From NCBI RefSeq assembly GCF_900129315.1, contig NZ_FQUS01000003.1, positions 124,001 through 188,000 on the forward strand: 64,000 bases of DNA. Reading direction: 5' to 3'. Origin of the DNA: Fodinibius roseus (GTDB taxonomy: Bacteria > Bacteroidota > Rhodothermia > Balneolales > Balneolaceae). The notes under the pieces were generated by a model that was not told the origin of the DNA, searched no databases, and saw nothing but the letters and a program-made list of their open reading frames with translations. A program made the position numbers and the translations under genes. Shown piece after piece: positions 53,306 to 64,000 of this stretch (position 1 is its first letter; each line of letters opens with the position of its first letter).

Positions 53306-53884
53306 ATGGTAGATTACACGTCAAATGAGCAGCGACTCTGGGAGTCTTTTCTGAAGGGCGATTTGAAGGCCTGGGAACAGATTTTTAAGTTGTTTTACAA
53401 GGATCTGTATGGCTACGGTATAAAATTGTCGTCTCGGCCGGAGTTCACCAAAGACTGTATTCATGAACTTTTTGTCGTACTGTGGGATCGCAGAGCACAT
53501 TTGGATGAGGTAGAATCTGTCAAGGCCTATCTTTTGGCTTCCCTGCGTAGAAGTCTGCTGAAGAAGATCAGGAAAAAGCGAAAACATTATGTAGACTGGG
53601 ACGAAAAAGTACATACCACGGTCGATATCCAGTTTTCGCCGGAAGAGGTCATCATCAGGGACGAAATAAAAGCGGATAAGCGAAATGCCTTGTACAAGGC
53701 CCTTGATTCCCTTCCCGATCGACAGAAAGAGGTGCTTTACCTGAAATATTTTAACGGTATGAGTTATGACGAAATAGAAGAAATTCTGGGGATCAATTAT
53801 CAGTCCATACGTAATCATATGTACCGGGCGGTGAAAAGGCTGAAGAAAATTATGAACGATCAATTTTCTGAAATTGCCATCTAA
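53306..53884 (+). CDS. ECF-type RNA polymerase sigma factor
   Basis: A 192-residue two-domain sigma factor. Region 2 (residues 7-80) has FLKGDLKAWEQIFKLFYKDL and ELFVVLWDRRAHLDEV; region 4 (132-185) has LPDRQKEVLYLKYFNGM and the helix-turn-helix SYDEIEEILGINYQSIRNHM. This is the Bacteroidota SusCD-linked ECF type. It should direct transcription of the fecR-susC-susD locus when released by the FecR-type anti-sigma factor encoded next. ATG 53306. Confidence 0.95.
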   Translation: MVDYTSNEQRLWESFLKGDLKAWEQIFKLFYKDLYGYGIKLSSRPEFTKDCIHELFVVLWDRRAHLDEVESVKAYLLASLRRSLLKKIRKKRKHYVDWDEKVHTTVDIQFSPEEVIIRDEIKADKRNALYKALDSLPDRQKEVLYLKYFNGMSYDEIEEILGINYQSIRNHMYRAVKRLKKIMNDQFSEIAI

Positions 53885-54393: not shown

Positions 54394-55452
54394 GTGAAAG
54401 AAAAAAGGCATATCATAGGGCAATTGCTTGATGACCCCTCCTTTGTCAGGTGGGTGGAGGGAGATTTGAATCGCCGCCAGGCTAAGCGGTGGAACCGGTG
54501 GGTTCAGAAAAGCGAACAGAACCGGAAATTGGCGAAAGAAGCTCAAAAAAGAATTACGGGTTTCTCTTTCGGGGATCCGGTGCTGCCTGATGTTCAGTCT
54601 GAATGGAAGAACATTTATCGTGAGGTTGCCTCAAAAAAGGAAGCGCGAGGGATAGCACAGAAGATGAGTAACGACCAAAATCGCGATCCGCTCAGTATGG
54701 TCTTAAAAGCGGCGGCCGTTCTTTTGGTCGGGGCCTTTATGGGCCTGGCTGCTTATATGTATCAGGAACCGGTACCCGAAGAGGAGCCTGTAGCTTTGCG
54801 AACTGTTCAAACGGAGTATGGTGAAAAAAGGACGATTAATCTTTCTGATGGATCGACCCTTATCCTGGCTCCCAAATCCAAAATCACCTATCGGGAAAAC
54901 TGGTTGGAAAAGCCGGTAAAACGAATTAATTTGGAGGGAGAAGCGTATTTCTCTATTGCATCTCAGGGAACTACAGGGCAACCTACCTTTGTCGTTAATA
55001 CCGAAGATGGTTCCGCTTCTGTCTGGGGAACCCGGTTCACGATGGATACCTACGGAACTGGGACCAGGGTCGTTTTGGAGGAGGGAGAAGTACGGATCCT
55101 TTCAGAAGAAGCTGAAGCCACAGAAAAATCCGCAACGACCATACAGCCCGGCCAGATGATACGCTACAGTAAATCCGATAATACGGTAGAACTCAAAGAG
55201 GTAAATCCAAGGGTATACACCTCCTGGTCCACGAATGAACTCTTTTTCGATAACACGCCCCTGTCGGTGTTGACAAATCGGATTGAACGCACCTATGGTG
55301 TAGAAGTTAAAGCAGAAGACGATGAGCTGTTGCAGAAAAAACTGTCCGGATCCGTAGATTTCAGGAGCCTGGAAGGATTAACGAGTGCGGTAGCGGAAGT
55401 TTTCGAAATTCAAATTCATCGATCAGGGGAGACCCTCATTATCAAACAATAA
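54394..55452 (+). CDS. FecR-family anti-sigma factor
   Basis: A 352-residue inner-membrane regulator. A cytoplasmic N-terminal sigma-binding part is followed by one membrane helix (about 102-123), the FecR domain (VQTEYGEKRTINLSDGSTLI, SVWGTRFTMDTY) and a C-terminal DUF4974-type domain (FFDNTPLSVLTNRIERTYGV). It should hold the ECF sigma factor until the SusC protein signals substrate binding. The start is GTG 54394. susC follows after 16 bases. Confidence 0.95.
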   Translation: MKEKRHIIGQLLDDPSFVRWVEGDLNRRQAKRWNRWVQKSEQNRKLAKEAQKRITGFSFGDPVLPDVQSEWKNIYREVASKKEARGIAQKMSNDQNRDPLSMVLKAAAVLLVGAFMGLAAYMYQEPVPEEEPVALRTVQTEYGEKRTINLSDGSTLILAPKSKITYRENWLEKPVKRINLEGEAYFSIASQGTTGQPTFVVNTEDGSASVWGTRFTMDTYGTGTRVVLEEGEVRILSEEAEATEKSATTIQPGQMIRYSKSDNTVELKEVNPRVYTSWSTNELFFDNTPLSVLTNRIERTYGVEVKAEDDELLQKKLSGSVDFRSLEGLTSAVAEVFEIQIHRSGETLIIKQ

Positions 55453-55468
55453 TAAGAACAAACAAGGC

Positions 55469-58400
55469 ATGATTATGAAAAGGTACAAATGGATAGCAAG
55501 TCTGATTGTTTTTCTGGTCGCTTTTACGCAATGGACGGCGGCCCAGAATAACCAGAGTAACAATAATGTATATGTCACTGCCAGCGACTGGAGCACGCAA
55601 AACCTGCATGAAGTTGCAGAAGGAACCAGCCTGCAGGAGGTTCTCTCCCTGGTTGAGGAAGAGTATAATGTTAACTTTTTGTTTGACAGCAAGCTGCTTG
55701 CCGACCGGCACCTGTCTGAAAATAAGATACTATACCTGAATCGTGATCTGTTTGATATTCTTGACCGGTTGCTTACCGAATTCGGTTTTACCTATAAAAA
55801 GCTTACCCACCGGACCTTGGGGATCGTTCCGGCAGAGTTGGCTTTGGAAGAGACGATATATATGGAAGTGATCTCAGGTACCGTAACGGATGCCCAGACC
55901 GGGGAACCCCTGCCGGGTGTGAACGTGATGGTCAAAGGGACGACTATTGGTTCCTCAAGTGATGCCGATGGTGCTTTTGAGTTTAATGCCCCGTCATTGC
56001 AGGATACCCTGATCTTTTCATTTATTGGCTACCAGACCCAGGAAGTGCCTATCAATGGACGCACGACCATAAATGTTGAATTGGTACCTCAGGCCATATC
56101 GGGTGAAGAAGTGGTCGTTACGGCTTTCGGTATAGAACGGGAAACGCAGTCACTGACCTACAGTACGGAAAGTGTGGACAGCGAATCGCTGACGGAAGCA
56201 CGGGAGTTGAATGTCGTGAACTCGCTTTCCGGTAAAGTGGCGGGAATGCAGATAAACCAGGCCGGTACCGGGGTCGGCGGTGATACCCGGGTGGTTCTCC
56301 GCGGGAACCGATCTATTTCGGGGAGCAGCCAGCCGCTGTATGTCGTCGACGGGGTGCCCATTCGCGGGGATATCAGCAATATGAACCCGGATATTATAGA
56401 AAGCATCAACGTACTGAAAGGACCGAATGCGGCCGCCCTTTACGGTAGTGAGGCCCAGAACGGCGCGATCGTCGTTACGACGAAAAGAGGCCAGGCGGGA
56501 GAAATAGATATTAGTTACAGCAGCAATTTTATGTTCAGGGATCCCCTGTTGTTAACTGAATATCAGAACCAGTACGGTCAGGGGACGTCCGGTGAATATG
56601 CTCCCAGCTCCGAGTCGAGCTTTGGCCCCAGAATGGATGGACGAATGGTAGATCACTGGTCGCCGAATCCTGAAAGGGACGGGGAACAGTACGCCTTCAA
56701 CCCCCAGCCGGATAATGTACGGGATGCTTTTCAAACCGGCTATAATTCCTCCAATAACCTGACGGCCAGTATGGGAAGCGAGAATATTCAGGCTCTCTTC
56801 TCATATACCTTTACCAATTCAGAAGGCGTGGTGCCCGGTAATGAACTGGATCGCCACAACATCAGCGCCCGCGTAAACAGCCAGCTGTCGGACAAATTGT
56901 CGCTGGACAGCAAGCTGTCTTATATGCGCCAGAGCATTGATAATCAATTGTTTACGGGCGAGAATTTTGCCAATCCTATCCGGCATATTTACCGCATGCC
57001 GCGGAATATCCGGACGGCGGATGCCGAAAACTTTGAGTATTTTACACCGGAGGGGACCCGGCGCCAGCACTACTGGAACCCGCTTTCCAACGGAGGCGCG
57101 AACCCGTACTGGACTATGAACCGGAACCTTAGAGAGAATGTCGGCGATCGCATTAATGCACTGGCTTCGCTGACCTACGATTTTACGGATTACCTGAGCC
57201 TGATGGTCCGTTCCGCCTATGACGGGGGAAGCGGAGAAGCCGAAATAAGGCGCTATAACGATACGTATGTAATCGCTCAGAATGGATATTATCAAATTAA
57301 CCAGAGCACTGGCTATGAGTGGAACAGTGATTTCCTGCTTTCGTACAACCAGGATCTTACCGAAGACTGGTATGTGGAAGCCAACCTCGGGGGGAACATC
57401 AAGCAGGAGCGTAACTCCGGTATGAGTTCAAATACGAATAACGCCCTGACGATCCCCAACTTTTTTGCCATTTCCAATACGCAGAACGTAGCGGCCAGCG
57501 AAAATATCGGATCCCCGATGGACATTTATTCGGCCTATGCATTTGGACAACTGGTCTGGAAGGATGCCATCTACCTGGATGTCTCCGGGCGTAATGACGT
57601 CAGTTCCACCCTTCCCGAAGACAACCGATCGTATTTCTATCCTTCAGTCGGATTGTCCGCAAGTTTAACGGAGTTAATTCCCGGGATGCCGGAGGTCCTA
57701 AATAACGCTCGGATCAGGGGATCCTGGGCGAAGGTGGGGAACAGCGCCCCTCCTTTTATGACCATCCGGACCGCCAGTCTTTCCGCCGGGGGTAATAACG
57801 GCTTTCTGCAGCTGGACACCACCCTGCCCAATGAAAACCTGAAACCTGAAGAAACGGAGTCGTTTGAACTGGGGGCCAATGTCCAATTTCTGGAAAATCG
57901 ACTGGGGCTGGATTTCACCTATTATAAAACCAATACCCGGGATCAGCTGTTCCAGGTGGCTGTACCGGTAGGCTCCGGCGCCAGCTCCTTCTTTACGAAT
58001 GGCGGAGATGTATCAAACGAAGGGTATGAAATCCTTCTGAACGCAACGCCGGTACAAAACCGGGACTTCAACTGGGATCTGAACGTGAACTATTCTACCA
58101 ATGAAAATATGGTGGAAAAGATTTCGGAAGATCAGCCTCGCCTGACACTGGCCACCGATTTTCTTCGCGCTTTTCGCATTGAAGAGGGTAAACCCTTCGG
58201 ACAGGTTTATTCCAGGGGCTGGGAGCGAACAGAAGATGGACGGGTGATCGTAGGAGAGGATGGCATTCCGGAGGTAACCGGCGGACTGACCGTCCCCGTC
58301 GCGAATTTTTCTCCCGACTGGAGAGGAAGTATTCGCAGTACTTTTTCCTACAAGAACCTGAGCATGAGCTTTCTGATCGATCACCGCCAGGGAGGAAGCA

Positions 58401-58888
58401 TTGCTTCTCTTACGAATGCCATCCTGTTTGACGATGGCCTGACCAAGCAAACGCTGAAAGGGCGTGAAGGGGGTATGGTGTTCGGAAGGGACATTTACAG
58501 TAATCTTGATGCGGTGGTGCGAACCGGCGGGACCGATGAAAATCCCGAGTATAGCGAGAATACCACGCCAATCAGTTCCCAGCAATTGTGGACATCGATC
58601 GGGGGACGTAATACGCCGGTGGGGGAAGCGTTTGTCGTAGATGCCACCAACACCCGGTTGCGGGAGCTCACGCTCGGTTACACGTTGCCGCAGAGCCTGA
58701 TTTCCACGCTTCCTGTTTCCAACGTGAAATTCTCGCTGGTGGGCAGAAACCTGCTCTTTATCCACCGGGCATCCGAGAACCTGGATCCCGACCTTATGAC
58801 CGGAACGAATGCCGCGGCCGAAGGATTTGAATCCTTTACTCCGCCATCAAGCCGTACGTTCGGTGCGAACATCAAGATAGATTTTTAG
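55469..58888 (+). CDS. SusC/RagA-type TonB-dependent outer membrane receptor with STN domain
   Basis: The 1139-residue outer membrane transporter works with the SusD protein that follows. It has a signal peptide (to about residue 25), an STN domain (about 45-120) for trans-envelope signalling, a carboxypeptidase-regulatory-like domain (about 135-208: ISGTVTDAQTGEPLPGVNVM), the plug with the SusC-type GNRSISGSSQPLYVVDGVPI and MNPDIIESINVLKGPNAAAL, and a 22-strand barrel ending in FGANIKIDF, with terminal Phe. The STN domain and adjacent sigma/anti-sigma genes mean ligand binding controls expression. ATG 55469; ATG 55475 is an alternative. Confidence 0.96.
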   Translation: MIMKRYKWIASLIVFLVAFTQWTAAQNNQSNNNVYVTASDWSTQNLHEVAEGTSLQEVLSLVEEEYNVNFLFDSKLLADRHLSENKILYLNRDLFDILDRLLTEFGFTYKKLTHRTLGIVPAELALEETIYMEVISGTVTDAQTGEPLPGVNVMVKGTTIGSSSDADGAFEFNAPSLQDTLIFSFIGYQTQEVPINGRTTINVELVPQAISGEEVVVTAFGIERETQSLTYSTESVDSESLTEARELNVVNSLSGKVAGMQINQAGTGVGGDTRVVLRGNRSISGSSQPLYVVDGVPIRGDISNMNPDIIESINVLKGPNAAALYGSEAQNGAIVVTTKRGQAGEIDISYSSNFMFRDPLLLTEYQNQYGQGTSGEYAPSSESSFGPRMDGRMVDHWSPNPERDGEQYAFNPQPDNVRDAFQTGYNSSNNLTASMGSENIQALFSYTFTNSEGVVPGNELDRHNISARVNSQLSDKLSLDSKLSYMRQSIDNQLFTGENFANPIRHIYRMPRNIRTADAENFEYFTPEGTRRQHYWNPLSNGGANPYWTMNRNLRENVGDRINALASLTYDFTDYLSLMVRSAYDGGSGEAEIRRYNDTYVIAQNGYYQINQSTGYEWNSDFLLSYNQDLTEDWYVEANLGGNIKQERNSGMSSNTNNALTIPNFFAISNTQNVAASENIGSPMDIYSAYAFGQLVWKDAIYLDVSGRNDVSSTLPEDNRSYFYPSVGLSASLTELIPGMPEVLNNARIRGSWAKVGNSAPPFMTIRTASLSAGGNNGFLQLDTTLPNENLKPEETESFELGANVQFLENRLGLDFTYYKTNTRDQLFQVAVPVGSGASSFFTNGGDVSNEGYEILLNATPVQNRDFNWDLNVNYSTNENMVEKISEDQPRLTLATDFLRAFRIEEGKPFGQVYSRGWERTEDGRVIVGEDGIPEVTGGLTVPVANFSPDWRGSIRSTFSYKNLSMSFLIDHRQGGSIASLTNAILFDDGLTKQTLKGREGGMVFGRDIYSNLDAVVRTGGTDENPEYSENTTPISSQQLWTSIGGRNTPVGEAFVVDATNTRLRELTLGYTLPQSLISTLPVSNVKFSLVGRNLLFIHRASENLDPDLMTGTNAAAEGFESFTPPSSRTFGANIKIDF

Positions 58889-58926: not shown

Positions 58927-60534
58927 ATGAATAGACTTAAAAATAATACACTTACAATGGTGAGCATGGGTCTGCTGGTCATGCTCTTTATGGCGGGTTG
59001 CAACGACCTTGAGGAATTGAATACGCCGGATGACCAGCTGGTCGCAAATAACCTGGAGGCTCCTCAATTGGGTCAGGCCTTTGCACAGGCCCAGTTTTTC
59101 GGGATGTATGGAAGTCCGGGTCCTTTTCAGCTTATGCAGTCGCTGCATGCGGATATTTACGCCCAGTATTTTGCAACGACGGCAGCAAATTTTGATTCTG
59201 ATCAGTTTGTGATGATCGGGAGGTGGCAGGACGGGGCCTGGAATGGCTTCTATGGCACGGCTGCACCCCAGCTCGATTTTGTCGAGAATTTTACCGCCGA
59301 AAACGGGATGGACCTCGAGAATGCTATCGCCAAAGTGATGAGGGTACAGCTCTATCACCGCATTTCCGACTACTGGGGACCCATTATTTACTCGGAGTTT
59401 GGCAATGGAGAGACCAGCGTACCCTACGATTCCCAGGAAGAAGTGTACAATAACTTTTTCGCCGCCCTCGATTCAGCGGTCACGGTCCTGCAATCCAATG
59501 CGGGCGGCAATGCATTCGGCAGCAATGACCAGATTTACGAGGGAAACGTGGATCAGTGGCTGACGTTTGCCAACTCCCTGCGGCTTCGCCTGGCGATGAG
59601 AGTCAGGTATGTTGCCCCGGATTTGGCACAGACCGAAGCCGAGAAAGCGGTCAGCGCGGGTGTTATGATGGCCAATTCGGATAATGCCGATCTGCTGACC
59701 ACCCAGAATTCCAGGAATCCCTATACGACCATTACCGACTGGGGCGAATTCCGCATGAGTGCGGCCATGGAAAGCGCGCTTGACGGCTATGAAGATCCTC
59801 GCCGGTCAACATACTTTCAGCCCGCGGCCAATGGGGATCAGGACGGGGACGGTAGCGCCTACGAAGGATTCCGCAACGGCTTGCCCAAAACCCAGAAAGA
59901 GGCAGGCGTAGGTGAAGGAGAAGAAAAGGAGGGTCTAAACGACCGGTATTCGGATATGGGCATCGACTGGATGAATAGTAGCAGTGGCGGTTCCAATCCC
60001 GCTATCGATATTATGGATGCTTCTGAAGTCTATTTCCTGAGAGCCGAAGGAGCGCTGATCGGCTGGAATATGAATGGAACGGCCGAAGAGTTGTATGAAG
60101 AGGGTATTCGCCTCTCCATGCAGGAAAATACCTCGGCTTCTTCTGCAGAGATCGAGGCCTACATAGAAAGCGGTAATACGCCCGCCTCCCCGGATGATGT
60201 GTGGAACAGCCCGGCCTTGTCCGACATTCCGGTGGCCTTTAATAATTCTGGCAGTGTAGAGCAGAGACTGGAGCAGATTATTACCCAGAAATGGCTTGCG
60301 CTCTATCCCAACAGCATGGAAGCGTGGGCGGAATACCGCCGAACGGGATACCCCACCCTGTACGACCCGATTAATTCCCTGAACTCCGATATTCCGGTAA
60401 CTGACCGGGTAAAACGTATTCCTTTTGTCAGCAGTGAATACTCGGATAATGCAGAGGCTGTGCAAAATGCAGTACAGTTACTGTCATCCGGATCGGATGA
60501 TGAGACTACCGAACTTTGGTGGGACGCAAAGTAG
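58927..60534 (+). CDS. SusD/RagB-type surface lipoprotein
   Basis: A 535-residue lipoprotein with lipobox MAGC (Cys25). It follows the SusD-like plan: LEELNTPDDQLVANNLEAPQ after the anchor, YHRISDYWGPIIYSEFGNGE in the TPR-like helices, DVWNSPALSDIPVAF, and the C-terminal ITQKWLALYPNSMEAWAEYR. It caps the SusC barrel and captures ligand at the cell surface. The pattern fits the SusD_2 subfamily often seen with peptide or small-molecule transporters. ATG 58927, 38 bases after susC. Confidence 0.95.
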   Translation: MNRLKNNTLTMVSMGLLVMLFMAGCNDLEELNTPDDQLVANNLEAPQLGQAFAQAQFFGMYGSPGPFQLMQSLHADIYAQYFATTAANFDSDQFVMIGRWQDGAWNGFYGTAAPQLDFVENFTAENGMDLENAIAKVMRVQLYHRISDYWGPIIYSEFGNGETSVPYDSQEEVYNNFFAALDSAVTVLQSNAGGNAFGSNDQIYEGNVDQWLTFANSLRLRLAMRVRYVAPDLAQTEAEKAVSAGVMMANSDNADLLTTQNSRNPYTTITDWGEFRMSAAMESALDGYEDPRRSTYFQPAANGDQDGDGSAYEGFRNGLPKTQKEAGVGEGEEKEGLNDRYSDMGIDWMNSSSGGSNPAIDIMDASEVYFLRAEGALIGWNMNGTAEELYEEGIRLSMQENTSASSAEIEAYIESGNTPASPDDVWNSPALSDIPVAFNNSGSVEQRLEQIITQKWLALYPNSMEAWAEYRRTGYPTLYDPINSLNSDIPVTDRVKRIPFVSSEYSDNAEAVQNAVQLLSSGSDDETTELWWDAK

Positions 60535-60714: not shown

Positions 60715-61308
60715 ATGAAACACACTCTTTACAGAAGTCTGGCAACACCTGCTCTGTTATTCTTTCTGGTTGTTACCCTGCTTGCCTGCGGCTCCAATGA
60801 CGCCGGTCAGCCGGTCAGCGATAACGAGCCCGACAATTATGATTACGATGTCGAGGAACGGCTGTCAGAGCTGGGTATCGAACTCGACGAAGAACCCACC
60901 CCGCCTGTGGCGAACTATGTGCCCAGCGTGCGAACCGGCAATCTCATCTTTCTGTCGGGGCACGGTCCCGATAAGCCGGATGGAAGCCAGGTGATCGGCA
61001 AAGTGGGAGAGGAGCTTTCTATTGAAGAGGGCCAGCAGGCGGCTCGTTTAACGGCTATTTCTTTGTTGACCTCCCTTAAAGCCGAAATCGGCGACCTCAA
61101 CAAGGTCAAACGCGTGGTCAAGGTTTTCGGTATGGTCAACGCCACCAGTGACTTTACGGAGCACCCGCAGGTCATCAACGGCTTTTCTGATCTGATGGTT
61201 GAAGTGTTCGGCCCAAAAGGAAAACACGCCCGTGCTGCTGTAGGTATGGGTTCGCTGCCGGGCAACATACCGGTTGAAATTGATATGATCGTAGAAGTGG
61301 GCGAGTAG
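60715..61308 (+). CDS. RidA family protein carried on a lipoprotein
   Basis: The 197-residue protein has a signal peptide with lipobox LLAC (Cys25), a polar Asp/Glu-rich linker, then a RidA/YjgF-like domain from about residue 60 (LGIELDEEPTPPVANYVPSV, GNLIFLSGHGP, VKRVVKVFGMVN, GKHARAAVGMGSLPGNIPVE, IDMIVEVG). The form with Leu-Gly-Ile-Glu-Leu and the conserved Arg in HARAAVG fits the YjgH/TdcF-like branch. RidA proteins hydrolyse reactive enamines and imines released by PLP enzymes, normally in the cytoplasm. Export is unusual. It lies 180 bases after susD and two genes before an exported SelA-like PLP enzyme. Confidence 0.9.
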   Translation: MKHTLYRSLATPALLFFLVVTLLACGSNDAGQPVSDNEPDNYDYDVEERLSELGIELDEEPTPPVANYVPSVRTGNLIFLSGHGPDKPDGSQVIGKVGEELSIEEGQQAARLTAISLLTSLKAEIGDLNKVKRVVKVFGMVNATSDFTEHPQVINGFSDLMVEVFGPKGKHARAAVGMGSLPGNIPVEIDMIVEVGE

Positions 61309-61495
61309 TTTTTACGGCTTTCTTCTCATACAAACCCTGCTTGCCTCCGCGTTTCTGTGGCATAAACACCTCTTGGGAGGGATACTGCGGCATGCCGTAA
61401 GTCCCTAAAAAGACGGGTGCGTTCTTAATTGTTGCACAGAAGCCAGGCGCTAACAATATCCAGAAAATGTTAAATTATTTTTCCAACCAAATGGC

Positions 61496-63238
61496 ATGAA
61501 CCGAATAGCTAATTCTCCCCTGAAAATAGTACCGTTTTTTCTTTTGGTTGTCCTGTTGACAAACTGCAGGGTAGCGGATGATGGTACCGGTACCAATACG
61601 GATTCCGAGAATGCCGGTTTGTTGGTGCCGGAGGGATTTGAAGTTACCATCGTGGCCGACAGCATCGGCAAAGCCCGCCACCTGGTTGTTAATGATAATG
61701 GAGACATTTATGTAAAAATGAAGTCCTCCGACGATCAAAAGGGAGCCCTGGCGCTGCGTGACACCACCGGGGACGGCGTCATGGATGTCGTCAAGAGATT
61801 CGGCAACAGGGACGGAAATTTTGCGGAAACCGAAATGACCATCCATGACGGCTATCTTTACTATACTTCCAGCTTGCGTGTTTACCGCCAAAAACTTATT
61901 CCCGGTCAGCTGCTCCCCGATGCAGAAGTGGATACCATTCTGATCGATGATCATGAACACGGCGACCATGAACACAATACCAAACCCCTTGCATTTGATG
62001 GAAAGGGCCACATGTATGTGCCTTTTGGCGCTCCGAACAACGCATGCCAGGAGCCCAAGCGAACGCCGGGGATCCCCGGACTGGACCCCTGCCCGATACT
62101 CGAGAATCACGGCGGAATTTGGCGGTTTGAAGATGACAAAAAGAATCAAAAGCAGGGAGACGGCGAACGCTTTGCCACAGGAGTGCGAAGCATCGTTGCG
62201 ATGAGCTGGAACCCGGCTGATGACCATTTGTATCTTGTGATGCACGGCCGGGACGATTTGCACCGGTTGTTTCCGAATGAATTTTCTCCCTGGGAGAATG
62301 CCGTGCTGCCCTCAGAGGAGTTCATGAGAGTCACCGAGGGATCTGATTTCGGCTGGCCCTATTGCTATTACGATCATATTCAGCAAAAGAAAGTATTGGC
62401 CCCGGAGTACGGGGGAGACGGCGAAACGGTGGGACGGTGCCGTGAATATGATGATCCCATACTGGGATTTCCGGGTCACTTTGCACCTAATGACCTGCTT
62501 TTTTACCAGGGCGATCAGTTTCCGGAGCATTACCGGAATGGAGCCTTTATCGCCTGGCATGGCTCCACGATTCGAAGTCCCTATCCCCAGGCGGGGTATT
62601 TTATTGCTTTTGTGCCGTTCGAAAATGGAAAAATATCCGGGGAGTGGGAAGTGTTTGCCAATGGTTTTGCCGAAACAGACCCGATTATCAACACCAGCGA
62701 TGCCGAACACCGTCCCTCGGGACTGGCCGTTGGCCCTGACGGTTCCCTGTATATTACGGAAGACCGAAACGGGCGGATCTGGAAAGTTAGCTTTACCGGG
62801 GACAAAGCGGCGTTCGGGGAGGAGCAGCTGGCCCGGATGAGAGAGGAAAAGCAGACCGCAAGCAATATTCGCCGGCCTGATCCAGAAGAAGATAATTTAC
62901 AAAAGGGGGAGATCGCGGGCGGGGAGCAGATATACCGAACCTATTGTGCCTCCTGTCACCAGCGTGATGGACAGGGGACGGACCGGTTTCCTCCGCTGGC
63001 TGGCACGGACTGGGTGACCGGCGACAAGAATCGACTGGTCGGGGTCATCCTGAACGGACTGGAAGGCAGTATCGAGGTCAAGGGACAGCAATACAATAAT
63101 GTGATGCCTCAGCACAGTTTTTTAAGCGATGAGGAGGTCGCTGAGGTGCTGACGTATATCCGGCAGAATTTTGATAATGACGCAAGTGCCGTTACCCCGG
63201 AAGAAGTGAACGATATTCGCCAGCGCATGCAGAACTAA
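61496..63238 (+). CDS. Exported sugar-dehydrogenase-like beta-propeller with C-terminal cytochrome c domain
   Basis: A 580-residue protein with an N-terminal lipoprotein-like signal ending LTNC (Cys24). Residues about 40-450 are a PQQ-dependent sugar/sorbosone dehydrogenase-like propeller (LLVPEGFEVTIVADSIGKAR, FATGVRSIVAMSWNPADD, PSGLAVGPDGSLYITEDRNG). The C-terminal domain holds a heme c site YCASCHQRDGQG (Cys484-His488) and a likely Met ligand in NVMPQHSF. Such fusions oxidise a sugar or other substrate in the periplasm and pass electrons to the respiratory chain. ATG 61496, between the RidA-like and SelA-like genes. Confidence 0.85.
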   Translation: MNRIANSPLKIVPFFLLVVLLTNCRVADDGTGTNTDSENAGLLVPEGFEVTIVADSIGKARHLVVNDNGDIYVKMKSSDDQKGALALRDTTGDGVMDVVKRFGNRDGNFAETEMTIHDGYLYYTSSLRVYRQKLIPGQLLPDAEVDTILIDDHEHGDHEHNTKPLAFDGKGHMYVPFGAPNNACQEPKRTPGIPGLDPCPILENHGGIWRFEDDKKNQKQGDGERFATGVRSIVAMSWNPADDHLYLVMHGRDDLHRLFPNEFSPWENAVLPSEEFMRVTEGSDFGWPYCYYDHIQQKKVLAPEYGGDGETVGRCREYDDPILGFPGHFAPNDLLFYQGDQFPEHYRNGAFIAWHGSTIRSPYPQAGYFIAFVPFENGKISGEWEVFANGFAETDPIINTSDAEHRPSGLAVGPDGSLYITEDRNGRIWKVSFTGDKAAFGEEQLARMREEKQTASNIRRPDPEEDNLQKGEIAGGEQIYRTYCASCHQRDGQGTDRFPPLAGTDWVTGDKNRLVGVILNGLEGSIEVKGQQYNNVMPQHSFLSDEEVAEVLTYIRQNFDNDASAVTPEEVNDIRQRMQN

Positions 63239-63270
63239 CGTCAAAATGTTAATGTAAAACCAAGATCGTT

Positions 63271-64000
63271 ATGATTAGCCGGAAAAAAATGTTGAAAATA
63301 CTGGCCGGATTTCCTCTCTTTGGTGGAATTGCGGCAGCTAAGATAGGAGATGCTGATGCTCAAACCGCCTCAACTTCGTCGGTTTCGGCGGTAGCTGAAA
63401 GGGACCTGTTTGAGGAGCTGGGCATTGAAACGCTGATAAACGGGAGGGGCACACTAACCTTTCTGTCCGGCTCGCTGATGCAGCCGGAGGTGGTGAAGGC
63501 CATCAAGTCTACCTCCGATGAGTTTGCCAACCTGTATGAAGTGCAGGATAAAGTAGGCCGGCGCATCGCCGAGTTGCTGAACTGTGAAGCAGCTATGGTC
63601 ACTTCCGGGGCTGCCGGAGCTCTCACCCTGGGTACGGCAGCGACGATTACCGGGACGGATGAAGAAAAGATTAAAAAGCTTCCCAACCTGCCGGGACCCC
63701 GGCGGGAAGTGATCATCCAGAAACGACACCGGTACAGTTATGATCACGCGGTTCGGAACACAGGCATCAGGATGGTTGAGGTAGAAAGCGCTGCGGAGAT
63801 GGAAGAGGCCATCAATGATCGGACGGTGATGTCCCTGTTCTTTAACGCGGCTGCCCAGTTTGGCGGATTCGAGCACAGCATAGGCCACGAGGAATTTGTA
63901 GCTATCAGCCGAAAGCACGACATCCCCTCCTTTATCGATGCGGCTGCGGACGTGCCCCCGCCGGAAAACTTATTCAAGTATATTGAGATCGGGTTTGACC
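63271..64000 (+). CDS. Exported SelA-like PLP-dependent enzyme (partial, runs off the window)
   Basis: 243 codons are visible from ATG 63271. The N-terminus MISRKKMLKILAG has a Tat-like motif (SRKKMLK, with Lys for the second Arg), a hydrophobic core and a cleavage site near ADA-QT. The mature part matches the selenocysteine synthase / D-glucosaminate-6-phosphate ammonia-lyase-like family of fold-type I PLP enzymes: LGIETLINGRGTLTFLSGSL, LNCEAAMVTSGAAGALTLGT, and the PLP-contacting FIDAAADVPP. The catalytic Lys would lie past the window end. These enzymes catalyse beta-elimination or ammonia loss. Neighbours suggest a periplasmic catabolic role; this is inferred. Confidence 0.85.
   Translation, partial: MISRKKMLKILAGFPLFGGIAAAKIGDADAQTASTSSVSAVAERDLFEELGIETLINGRGTLTFLSGSLMQPEVVKAIKSTSDEFANLYEVQDKVGRRIAELLNCEAAMVTSGAAGALTLGTAATITGTDEEKIKKLPNLPGPRREVIIQKRHRYSYDHAVRNTGIRMVEVESAAEMEEAINDRTVMSLFFNAAAQFGGFEHSIGHEEFVAISRKHDIPSFIDAAADVPPPENLFKYIEIGFD

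Follow-up and report, generated by a model that had tools for sequence, protein, structure and literature searches.

A putative extracytoplasmic amino-sugar-acid pathway with exported Rid proteins in Fodinibius roseus

Rid proteins are seen as guardians of cytoplasmic enzymes that use pyridoxal 5'-phosphate (PLP). A locus of the salt-loving bacterium Fodinibius roseus, in which a Rid protein and a PLP enzyme both begin with apparent export signals, raises the question of what such proteins might do outside the cytoplasm. The locus lies at the end of a 64,000-nucleotide stretch, hereafter the window (NZ_FQUS01000003.1, positions 124,001 to 188,000; C23:124001-188000 of the 5.08 Mb source genome). 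Three open reading frames (ORFs) described there by a first-pass annotation are present on the forward strand, namely a Rid-superfamily lipoprotein, Rid-1 (60715..61308), a GSDH-type sugar dehydrogenase-cytochrome c lipoprotein (61496..63238) and a DgaE-like PLP enzyme with a Tat-like signal (63271..64000), which continues beyond the window edge. On balance, a 2-amino-2-deoxy sugar or its C1-oxidised acid is probably broken down by the products of this locus in an extracytoplasmic pathway without phosphorylation, and the likelihood that the substrate is of the N-acetylglucosamine (GlcNAc) type is put at about even. The gene set, the export signals, the family memberships, the catalytic residues and the conserved linkage are supported by the sequences themselves.

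Extension of the sequence past position 64000, as had been suggested, brought to light the PLP lysine (K251) and five further genes of the locus. These are numbered here in the stretch L008 (C23:176000-195999), in which a position plus 51999 gives the window position. The full PLP enzyme gene spans G000:C23:187271-188512 (L008:11272-12513) and encodes 413 amino acids. It is followed outside the window by genes for an SMP-30-like, lactonase-type lipoprotein (L008:12671-13636), a second Rid protein, Rid-2 (L008:13697-14191), an EF_0837/cog3964-type amidohydrolase (L008:14295-15623), an RraA-like, aldolase-type protein (L008:15862-16812) and a BASS transporter (L008:17004-18158). All genes from Rid-1 through the BASS transporter lie on the forward strand with intergenic gaps of 32-238 bases, a layout from which a single transcript appears likely. 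A promoter consensus scan of the locus gave no excess over shuffles, and terminator-like sites were slightly more frequent than in shuffles.

Motif, hydrophobicity and conservation served as the criteria for export signals. All seven soluble proteins of the locus begin with a lipobox, a twin-arginine translocation (Tat)-like signal or a Sec-like signal. Lipoboxes are present in Rid-1 (LLAC, Cys25), the dehydrogenase (LTNC, Cys24) and, as identified by eye, the SMP-30-like protein (GSGC, Cys34). The N-terminus of the PLP enzyme reads MISRKKMLKILAGFPLFGGIAAAKIGDADA, with the motif SRKKMLK as an RK variant; the copy in Fodinibius sediminis has SRRKMLK, and Rid-2 has the Tat signal SRRSIIK. A Tat-like motif with a hydrophobic stretch was found in all DgaE homologues with an intact N-terminus (23/23; 18 RR, 5 RK) and all Rid-2 homologues (12/12), compared with 6 among the 114 other ORFs of 250 amino acids or more from the same loci, and is therefore more than a chance occurrence; several of the six control positives look like genuine Tat proteins. 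The lipoprotein signal on Rid-1 and the Tat-like signal on the PLP enzyme, both reported earlier, are thus borne out by motif, and none of these DgaE and Rid-2 homologues lacked the N-terminal extension. Among the Rid-1 proteins of the cluster, nine of 12 have a lipobox and the remaining three a hydrophobic start. The genome encodes TatC, and motif, h-region and translocase are accordingly all present for Rid-2 (RR) and the PLP enzyme (RK). Export of the PLP enzyme and the Rid proteins is considered highly probable from these features.

The identity of the PLP enzyme bears on the reaction that may be carried out. K251 lies in the motif SGGKA and is invariant in 21/21 homologues; it corresponds to position 213 counted on the chain of 7lc0, or Lys-217 in the numbering of PMC9529869. 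The best PDB match by sequence is 7lc0 (E 4e-32), which is also the best fold match (TM 0.83/0.85) of an AlphaFold2 model (pLDDT 90.8) prepared with rows from plasmid records left out. The earlier description as a SelA-like PLP enzyme holds for a PLP lyase-type enzyme, whereas a SelA identity was rejected because DgaE is closer by both sequence and fold. Against TIGR01437 the enzyme reached E 3.8e-56, yet under the cut-off, and it is best described as a relative of DGL and not as an established member. The SHH motif of DGL is replaced in 20/21 exported homologues; His163 is thus missing from most but not all exported copies, and another histidine lies nearby in Balneolaceae. The 6-phosphate-site arginines 301, 332 and 346 are not kept as a set among homologues. 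His163 is the proton donor of DGL, and the H163A variant releases free enamine at the millimolar level (PMC9529869). Replacement of SHH, together with loss of the arginine set, would fit an unphosphorylated substrate and release of an enamine, and hence a Rid partner. SHH is also absent from Cap15 and from haloarchaeal enzymes. A long DgaE-like subfamily (~530-575 amino acids), with a Tat-like start and an extra C-terminal domain, was observed in addition (L034:8737-10413, L040:11735-13456, L042:9169-10848, L123:13707-15305).

By profile, both Rid-1 (PF14588, 63.3 bits, cut-off 35; PF01042, 48.6 bits, cut-off 27.3) and Rid-2 (69.4 bits, cut-off 27.3) are classed as Rid-superfamily proteins. 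They are not RidA in the strict sense as defined by TIGR00004 (32.1 and 60.8 bits, respectively; cut-off 106 bits), and the earlier term RidA-like is therefore kept at the level of the superfamily only. The substrate-binding arginine, the counterpart of Arg105 of E. coli RidA, is retained as Arg173 in Rid-1 (61/61 rows) and Arg139 in Rid-2 (22/22 rows). In an even set of 296 genomes of the phylum, Rid-1-like proteins were found in 90 (E<=1e-25). The 60 that were examined split cleanly into exported (43 with a signal) and non-exported (17 without) members, and the majority of the exported proteins are encoded away from any DgaE. A supported clade (99/93) unites eleven of the cluster Rid-1 rows; the G134 copy is placed elsewhere. 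Rid-1 was rejected as the specific partner of the PLP enzyme, since it is present in 90/296 genomes and its exported subfamily occurs in many that lack the PLP enzyme; for the same reason, the Rid linked to the predicted pathway is Rid-2. The first-pass pairing of RidA with the PLP enzyme thus survives as a conserved exported set, with the specific partner being Rid-2, outside the window, and not Rid-1. Export of Rid proteins is, as far as signal motifs indicate, a wider trait of the phylum Bacteroidota.

The Rid proteins might instead be binding, chaperone-like or regulatory proteins and not enamine/imine hydrolases, their linkage reflecting another role. Other roles have been reported for the Rid superfamily, and Rid-1 scores under the TIGR00004 cut-off, while most members of its exported subfamily are encoded away from DgaE. 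This is nevertheless judged very unlikely, given that the catalytic arginine is present in every row, that Rid-2 and the PLP enzyme show strict co-occurrence and that adjacency of Rid and DgaE recurs in Alphaproteobacteria and haloarchaea. As separate observations, exported Rid-1-like proteins are widespread in Bacteroidota in DgaE-free contexts (L052-L118), and a Rid-2-like lipoprotein (MKRLIPLLSVFVLVGCAAPQ; L090:1330-1902, genome G183) adjoins a GMC-type-looking oxidoreductase and may be a further case of an exported Rid with a partner. The open-access literature yielded no description of either an exported Rid or this pathway, subscription papers lying outside the search and novelty being unproven; signal peptides and the periplasm go unmentioned in a 2015 survey of the Rid family.

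Conservation across genomes supports a functional set. In the same 296 genomes, the PLP enzyme (E<=1e-30), Rid-2 (E<1e-40) and the amidohydrolase (E<=1e-60) were present in an identical seven, from four families (f1, f21, f26, f44). The chance of one identical 7-set is 2.7e-14 on the assumption of independent genomes, which they are not. Within its own family the PLP enzyme was found in 8/92 genomes, and the locus is accessory and patchily spread. The closest named relative at the locus is Fodinibius sediminis (PLP enzyme 86% identical), and the neighbourhood is kept in this species, in Rhodohalobacter, in metagenome-assembled genomes (MAGs) of Balneolaceae and in distant Bacteroidota. The gene set therefore recurs, as the first-pass annotation had proposed should be checked. 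The genes are clustered in nearly all neighbourhoods read, with varying order and membership; for one copy (L036), located close to a contig end, the stretch seen contained none of the other members. Across families, the set is repeatedly accompanied by the dehydrogenase and lactonase.

Several paralogous amidohydrolase/DgaE pairs are found per genome, and other DgaE copies adjoin GlcNAc-epimerase-like, GSDH or PIG-L genes. One Balneolaceae genome (G331) shows a marked expansion to ten DgaE-like copies. At a second locus of the F. roseus genome (L033:10036-12672, G000:C28), with sulfatase, PIG-L deacetylase and TctABC genes as neighbours, the amidohydrolase is 93% but the DgaE only 48% identical to those of the window locus, a mismatch which would suggest that only one of the partners has recently been duplicated, transferred or changed by gene conversion. 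In a Balneolaceae MAG, a DgaE-like gene is split into two ORFs (L030:10001-11206), representing a pseudogene or an assembly error.

A sequence of reactions can be proposed from these families, in which the substrate, the order of steps, the location and every reaction are predictions. The lipoprotein dehydrogenase would oxidise the sugar at C1 and pass electrons to its own cytochrome c. It matches PF07995 and cytochrome c profiles, and its haem motif CASCH (CxxCH 484-488) and Met537 are invariant in 10 rows, confirming the earlier observation of a cytochrome-linked dehydrogenase between Rid-1 and the PLP enzyme; GSDH activity, PQQ (pyrroloquinoline quinone) binding and the aldolase activity of RraA are judged from family membership. 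SMP-30 proteins are lactonases, and the lactone would next be opened by the SMP-30-like lipoprotein. The amidohydrolase belongs to the cog3964/EF_0837 family (NF006689, 422 bits, cut-off 371) and its metal ligands (His, His, Lys, His, His/Tyr, Asp) are kept, except in one L034 paralogue. Deacylases of the cog3964 type act on D-configured N-acyl amino acids, and the enzyme may strip the N-acyl group from a D-configured 2-acylamino acid. The DgaE-like enzyme, loaded with cofactor and folded in the cytoplasm before Tat export, would then eliminate water to give an enamine/imine, which one or both exported Rids would hydrolyse to a keto acid (2-keto-3-deoxygluconate (KDG)-like) and ammonia. Faster product formation would be one benefit, and the exported PLP enzyme might also be protected. 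As some RraA-like proteins are pyruvate aldolases and keto acids are transported by BASS carriers, the RraA-like protein may cleave the keto acid and the BASS transporter import it, and two KDPG-aldolase-family genes in the genome could serve the imported product. The periplasmic elimination pathway put forward in the first-pass annotation is made plausible by the export signals, the conserved set, the PLP lyase-type enzyme and the cytochrome-linked dehydrogenase. It needs revision in that the Rid partner is Rid-2 and that it also takes in the amidohydrolase, the lactonase, the aldolase and the transporter.

Counterparts in other phyla bear on these steps. A plasmid of Granulicella (Acidobacteriota) carries genes for RraA, a DgaE-like enzyme, Rid-2, a second, long DgaE-like enzyme, an amidohydrolase and a lactonase of a different family; Tat-like signals are present on both DgaE-like enzymes, Rid-2 and the lactonase, and a Sec-like signal on the amidohydrolase. 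On Rhizobium plasmids, a Rid-1-type gene lies directly 5' of a DgaE-like gene, both without signals and beside ABC importer genes. Among haloarchaea, a Halosolutus plasmid encodes a PIG-L deacetylase, a DgaE-like enzyme, a Rid, a glucose 1-dehydrogenase and a lactonase side by side, and DgaE and Rid adjoin in Haloprofundus. In chitin-growing Natrarchaeobius, a DgaE homologue (DGA), a glucose dehydrogenase (GDH) and RutC, which represents a Rid family, are encoded in chitinase clusters, with RutC interpreted as a transcription repressor (PMC12343721). These haloarchaeal sets resemble the window locus in bringing together a DgaE-like enzyme, a Rid, a sugar dehydrogenase, a lactonase and a deacetylase, but their DgaE and Rid lack signals and glucose 1-dehydrogenase takes the place of the cytochrome-linked lipoprotein. 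That the same functions are combined through different protein families favours the proposed route by way of oxidation, opening of the lactone, deacylation and elimination.

Several observations weigh against the proposed pathway. The PLP enzyme does not reach the cut-offs of TIGR01437 and NF047797 (149.7 and 190.5 bits; 385 bits stated as cut-off), so its reaction may differ from that of DGL. Cap15 (8t7j), an oxygen-dependent PLP enzyme, is the second-best sequence match and an equal fold match (TM 0.85/0.88), and likewise lacks SHH. The exported enzyme could accordingly be Cap15-like, oxidising a beta-hydroxy amino acid at an extracytoplasmic site open to oxygen, with the Rid handling the imine derived from oxidation. 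This appears quite unlikely, however, since DGL ranks first in sequence match and E-value, and since the amidohydrolase partner suggests deamination to a keto acid, as do the parallels in haloarchaea, rhizobia and the ong pathway (see below). For the amino-sugar pathway, further difficulties lie in the link between SHH loss and Rid, which is imperfect: the reshaped loop of Balneolaceae copies contains another histidine (H202 in the case of the window enzyme), and Rhizobium DgaE retains SHH yet adjoins a Rid. Some relatives' clusters are without RraA, BASS or one Rid in the stretch seen. No PqqE was found above cut-off in the genome, so that the dehydrogenase would need either an imported cofactor or a different one. 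Enamines of this kind hydrolyse spontaneously within seconds, so that the need for a Rid is not obvious, and the enamine that the H163A variant of DGL produces does not inactivate it (PMC9529869), which counts against self-protection.

The genome also contains no GH20 hexosaminidase, and a chitin-oligosaccharide source is therefore not supported. This absence would suit a reading in which the exported machinery serves other N-acyl-D-3-hydroxy amino acids, such as N-acyl-D-serine/threonine or other aldonic amino acids, while the substrate of the dehydrogenase and lactonase is a neutral sugar with no relation to them. The same elimination is conceivable for any D-2-amino-3-hydroxy acid, OngC of the ong pathway also takes D-serine and D-threonine (PMC9537276), and the several paralogous amidohydrolase/DgaE pairs per genome suggest several substrates. 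Recurrence of the dehydrogenase and lactonase with the set across families makes this rather unlikely, as do the unrelated dehydrogenase, lactonase and deacetylase families beside the haloarchaeal DgaE-Rid, which argue for a C1-oxidised, deacetylated sugar. A complete amino-sugar-acid pathway operating outside the cytoplasm is entertained tentatively, at slightly below even likelihood: a Tat-exported PLP lyase without the protonating histidine of DGL would release free enamine and depend on two exported Rids, and a separate exported Rid subfamily would serve other uses across Bacteroidota.

Upstream of the locus, on the forward strand, lie genes for a putative ECF (extracytoplasmic function)-type sigma factor (53306..53884; by position and length), a putative FecR-like anti-sigma factor (54394..55452; by position), a SusC-like outer-membrane transporter (55469..58888) and a SusD-like lipoprotein (58927..60534). 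Orthologues of the SusC- and SusD-like proteins were seen directly upstream of the cluster only in the nearest relatives, L025 (85% and 80% identity) and L035 (73% and 69%); SusCD is absent from the stretch seen in L028 and L037, and more distant pairs are found in L027, L041 and L042. The SusCD genes noted earlier thus adjoin the cluster here and in these two relatives, and were rejected as part of its conserved core. Just downstream on the reverse strand is a gene for a large VCBS/ASPIC-UnbV-like repeat protein (L008:18332-19999 and L009:1-1787), and beyond it a further SusC/SusD pair.

If the proposed pathway is correct, amino sugars could be deacetylated, deaminated and cleaved in their carbon chain outside the cytoplasm, with electrons passing straight to cytochromes and only the keto acid imported. 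A single source, a single reactive product and a single candidate target would be isolated in a compartment poor in other PLP enzymes, and the pairing of an exported PLP enzyme with exported Rids would make what Rid protects directly testable.

PLP enzymes outside the cytoplasm do exist, among them the Tat-dependent Pseudomonas PvdN and broad-specificity periplasmic racemases; these belong to other families with other functions and are not known to have a Rid partner. EF_0837-EF_0839-type pairs (TIGR01437, TIGR03583) combine a PLP enzyme and an amidohydrolase from two families to which those of the window locus are related, and are not known to have signals or a dehydrogenase/lactonase/Rid set. 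DGL/DgaE shares with the window enzyme the fold, the PLP lysine and ~25% identity over the whole chain, but has no N-terminal extension, and its SHH (His162/His163) and phosphate-site arginines are not conserved in the window family. The Dga pathway is cytoplasmic and acts on a phosphorylated substrate, whereas the window locus carries signals for export and an unphosphorylated substrate is proposed. The closest functional parallel is the ong pathway of Pseudoalteromonas, in which N-acetylglucosaminate is used via KDG with a deacetylase (OngB), a PLP deaminase (OngC), the Rid protein OngD, which is essential but of unknown role, and KdgK (PMC9537276). The ong enzymes are cytoplasmic and GlcNAc1A is imported first, whereas the soluble parts of the window locus all have export signals; OngB is a D-aminoacylase relative, in contrast to the cog3964-type enzyme here. 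Because OngC is of fold-type III and the enzyme here has the DgaE-like/SelA fold, the window locus is not classed as an ong pathway and would at most work like one. Common to ong and the proposal are deacetylation, elimination/deamination to KDG without prior phosphorylation and a Rid, required in vivo in the ong case, and the exported set may help to explain the essentiality of OngD in oxidative chitin use.

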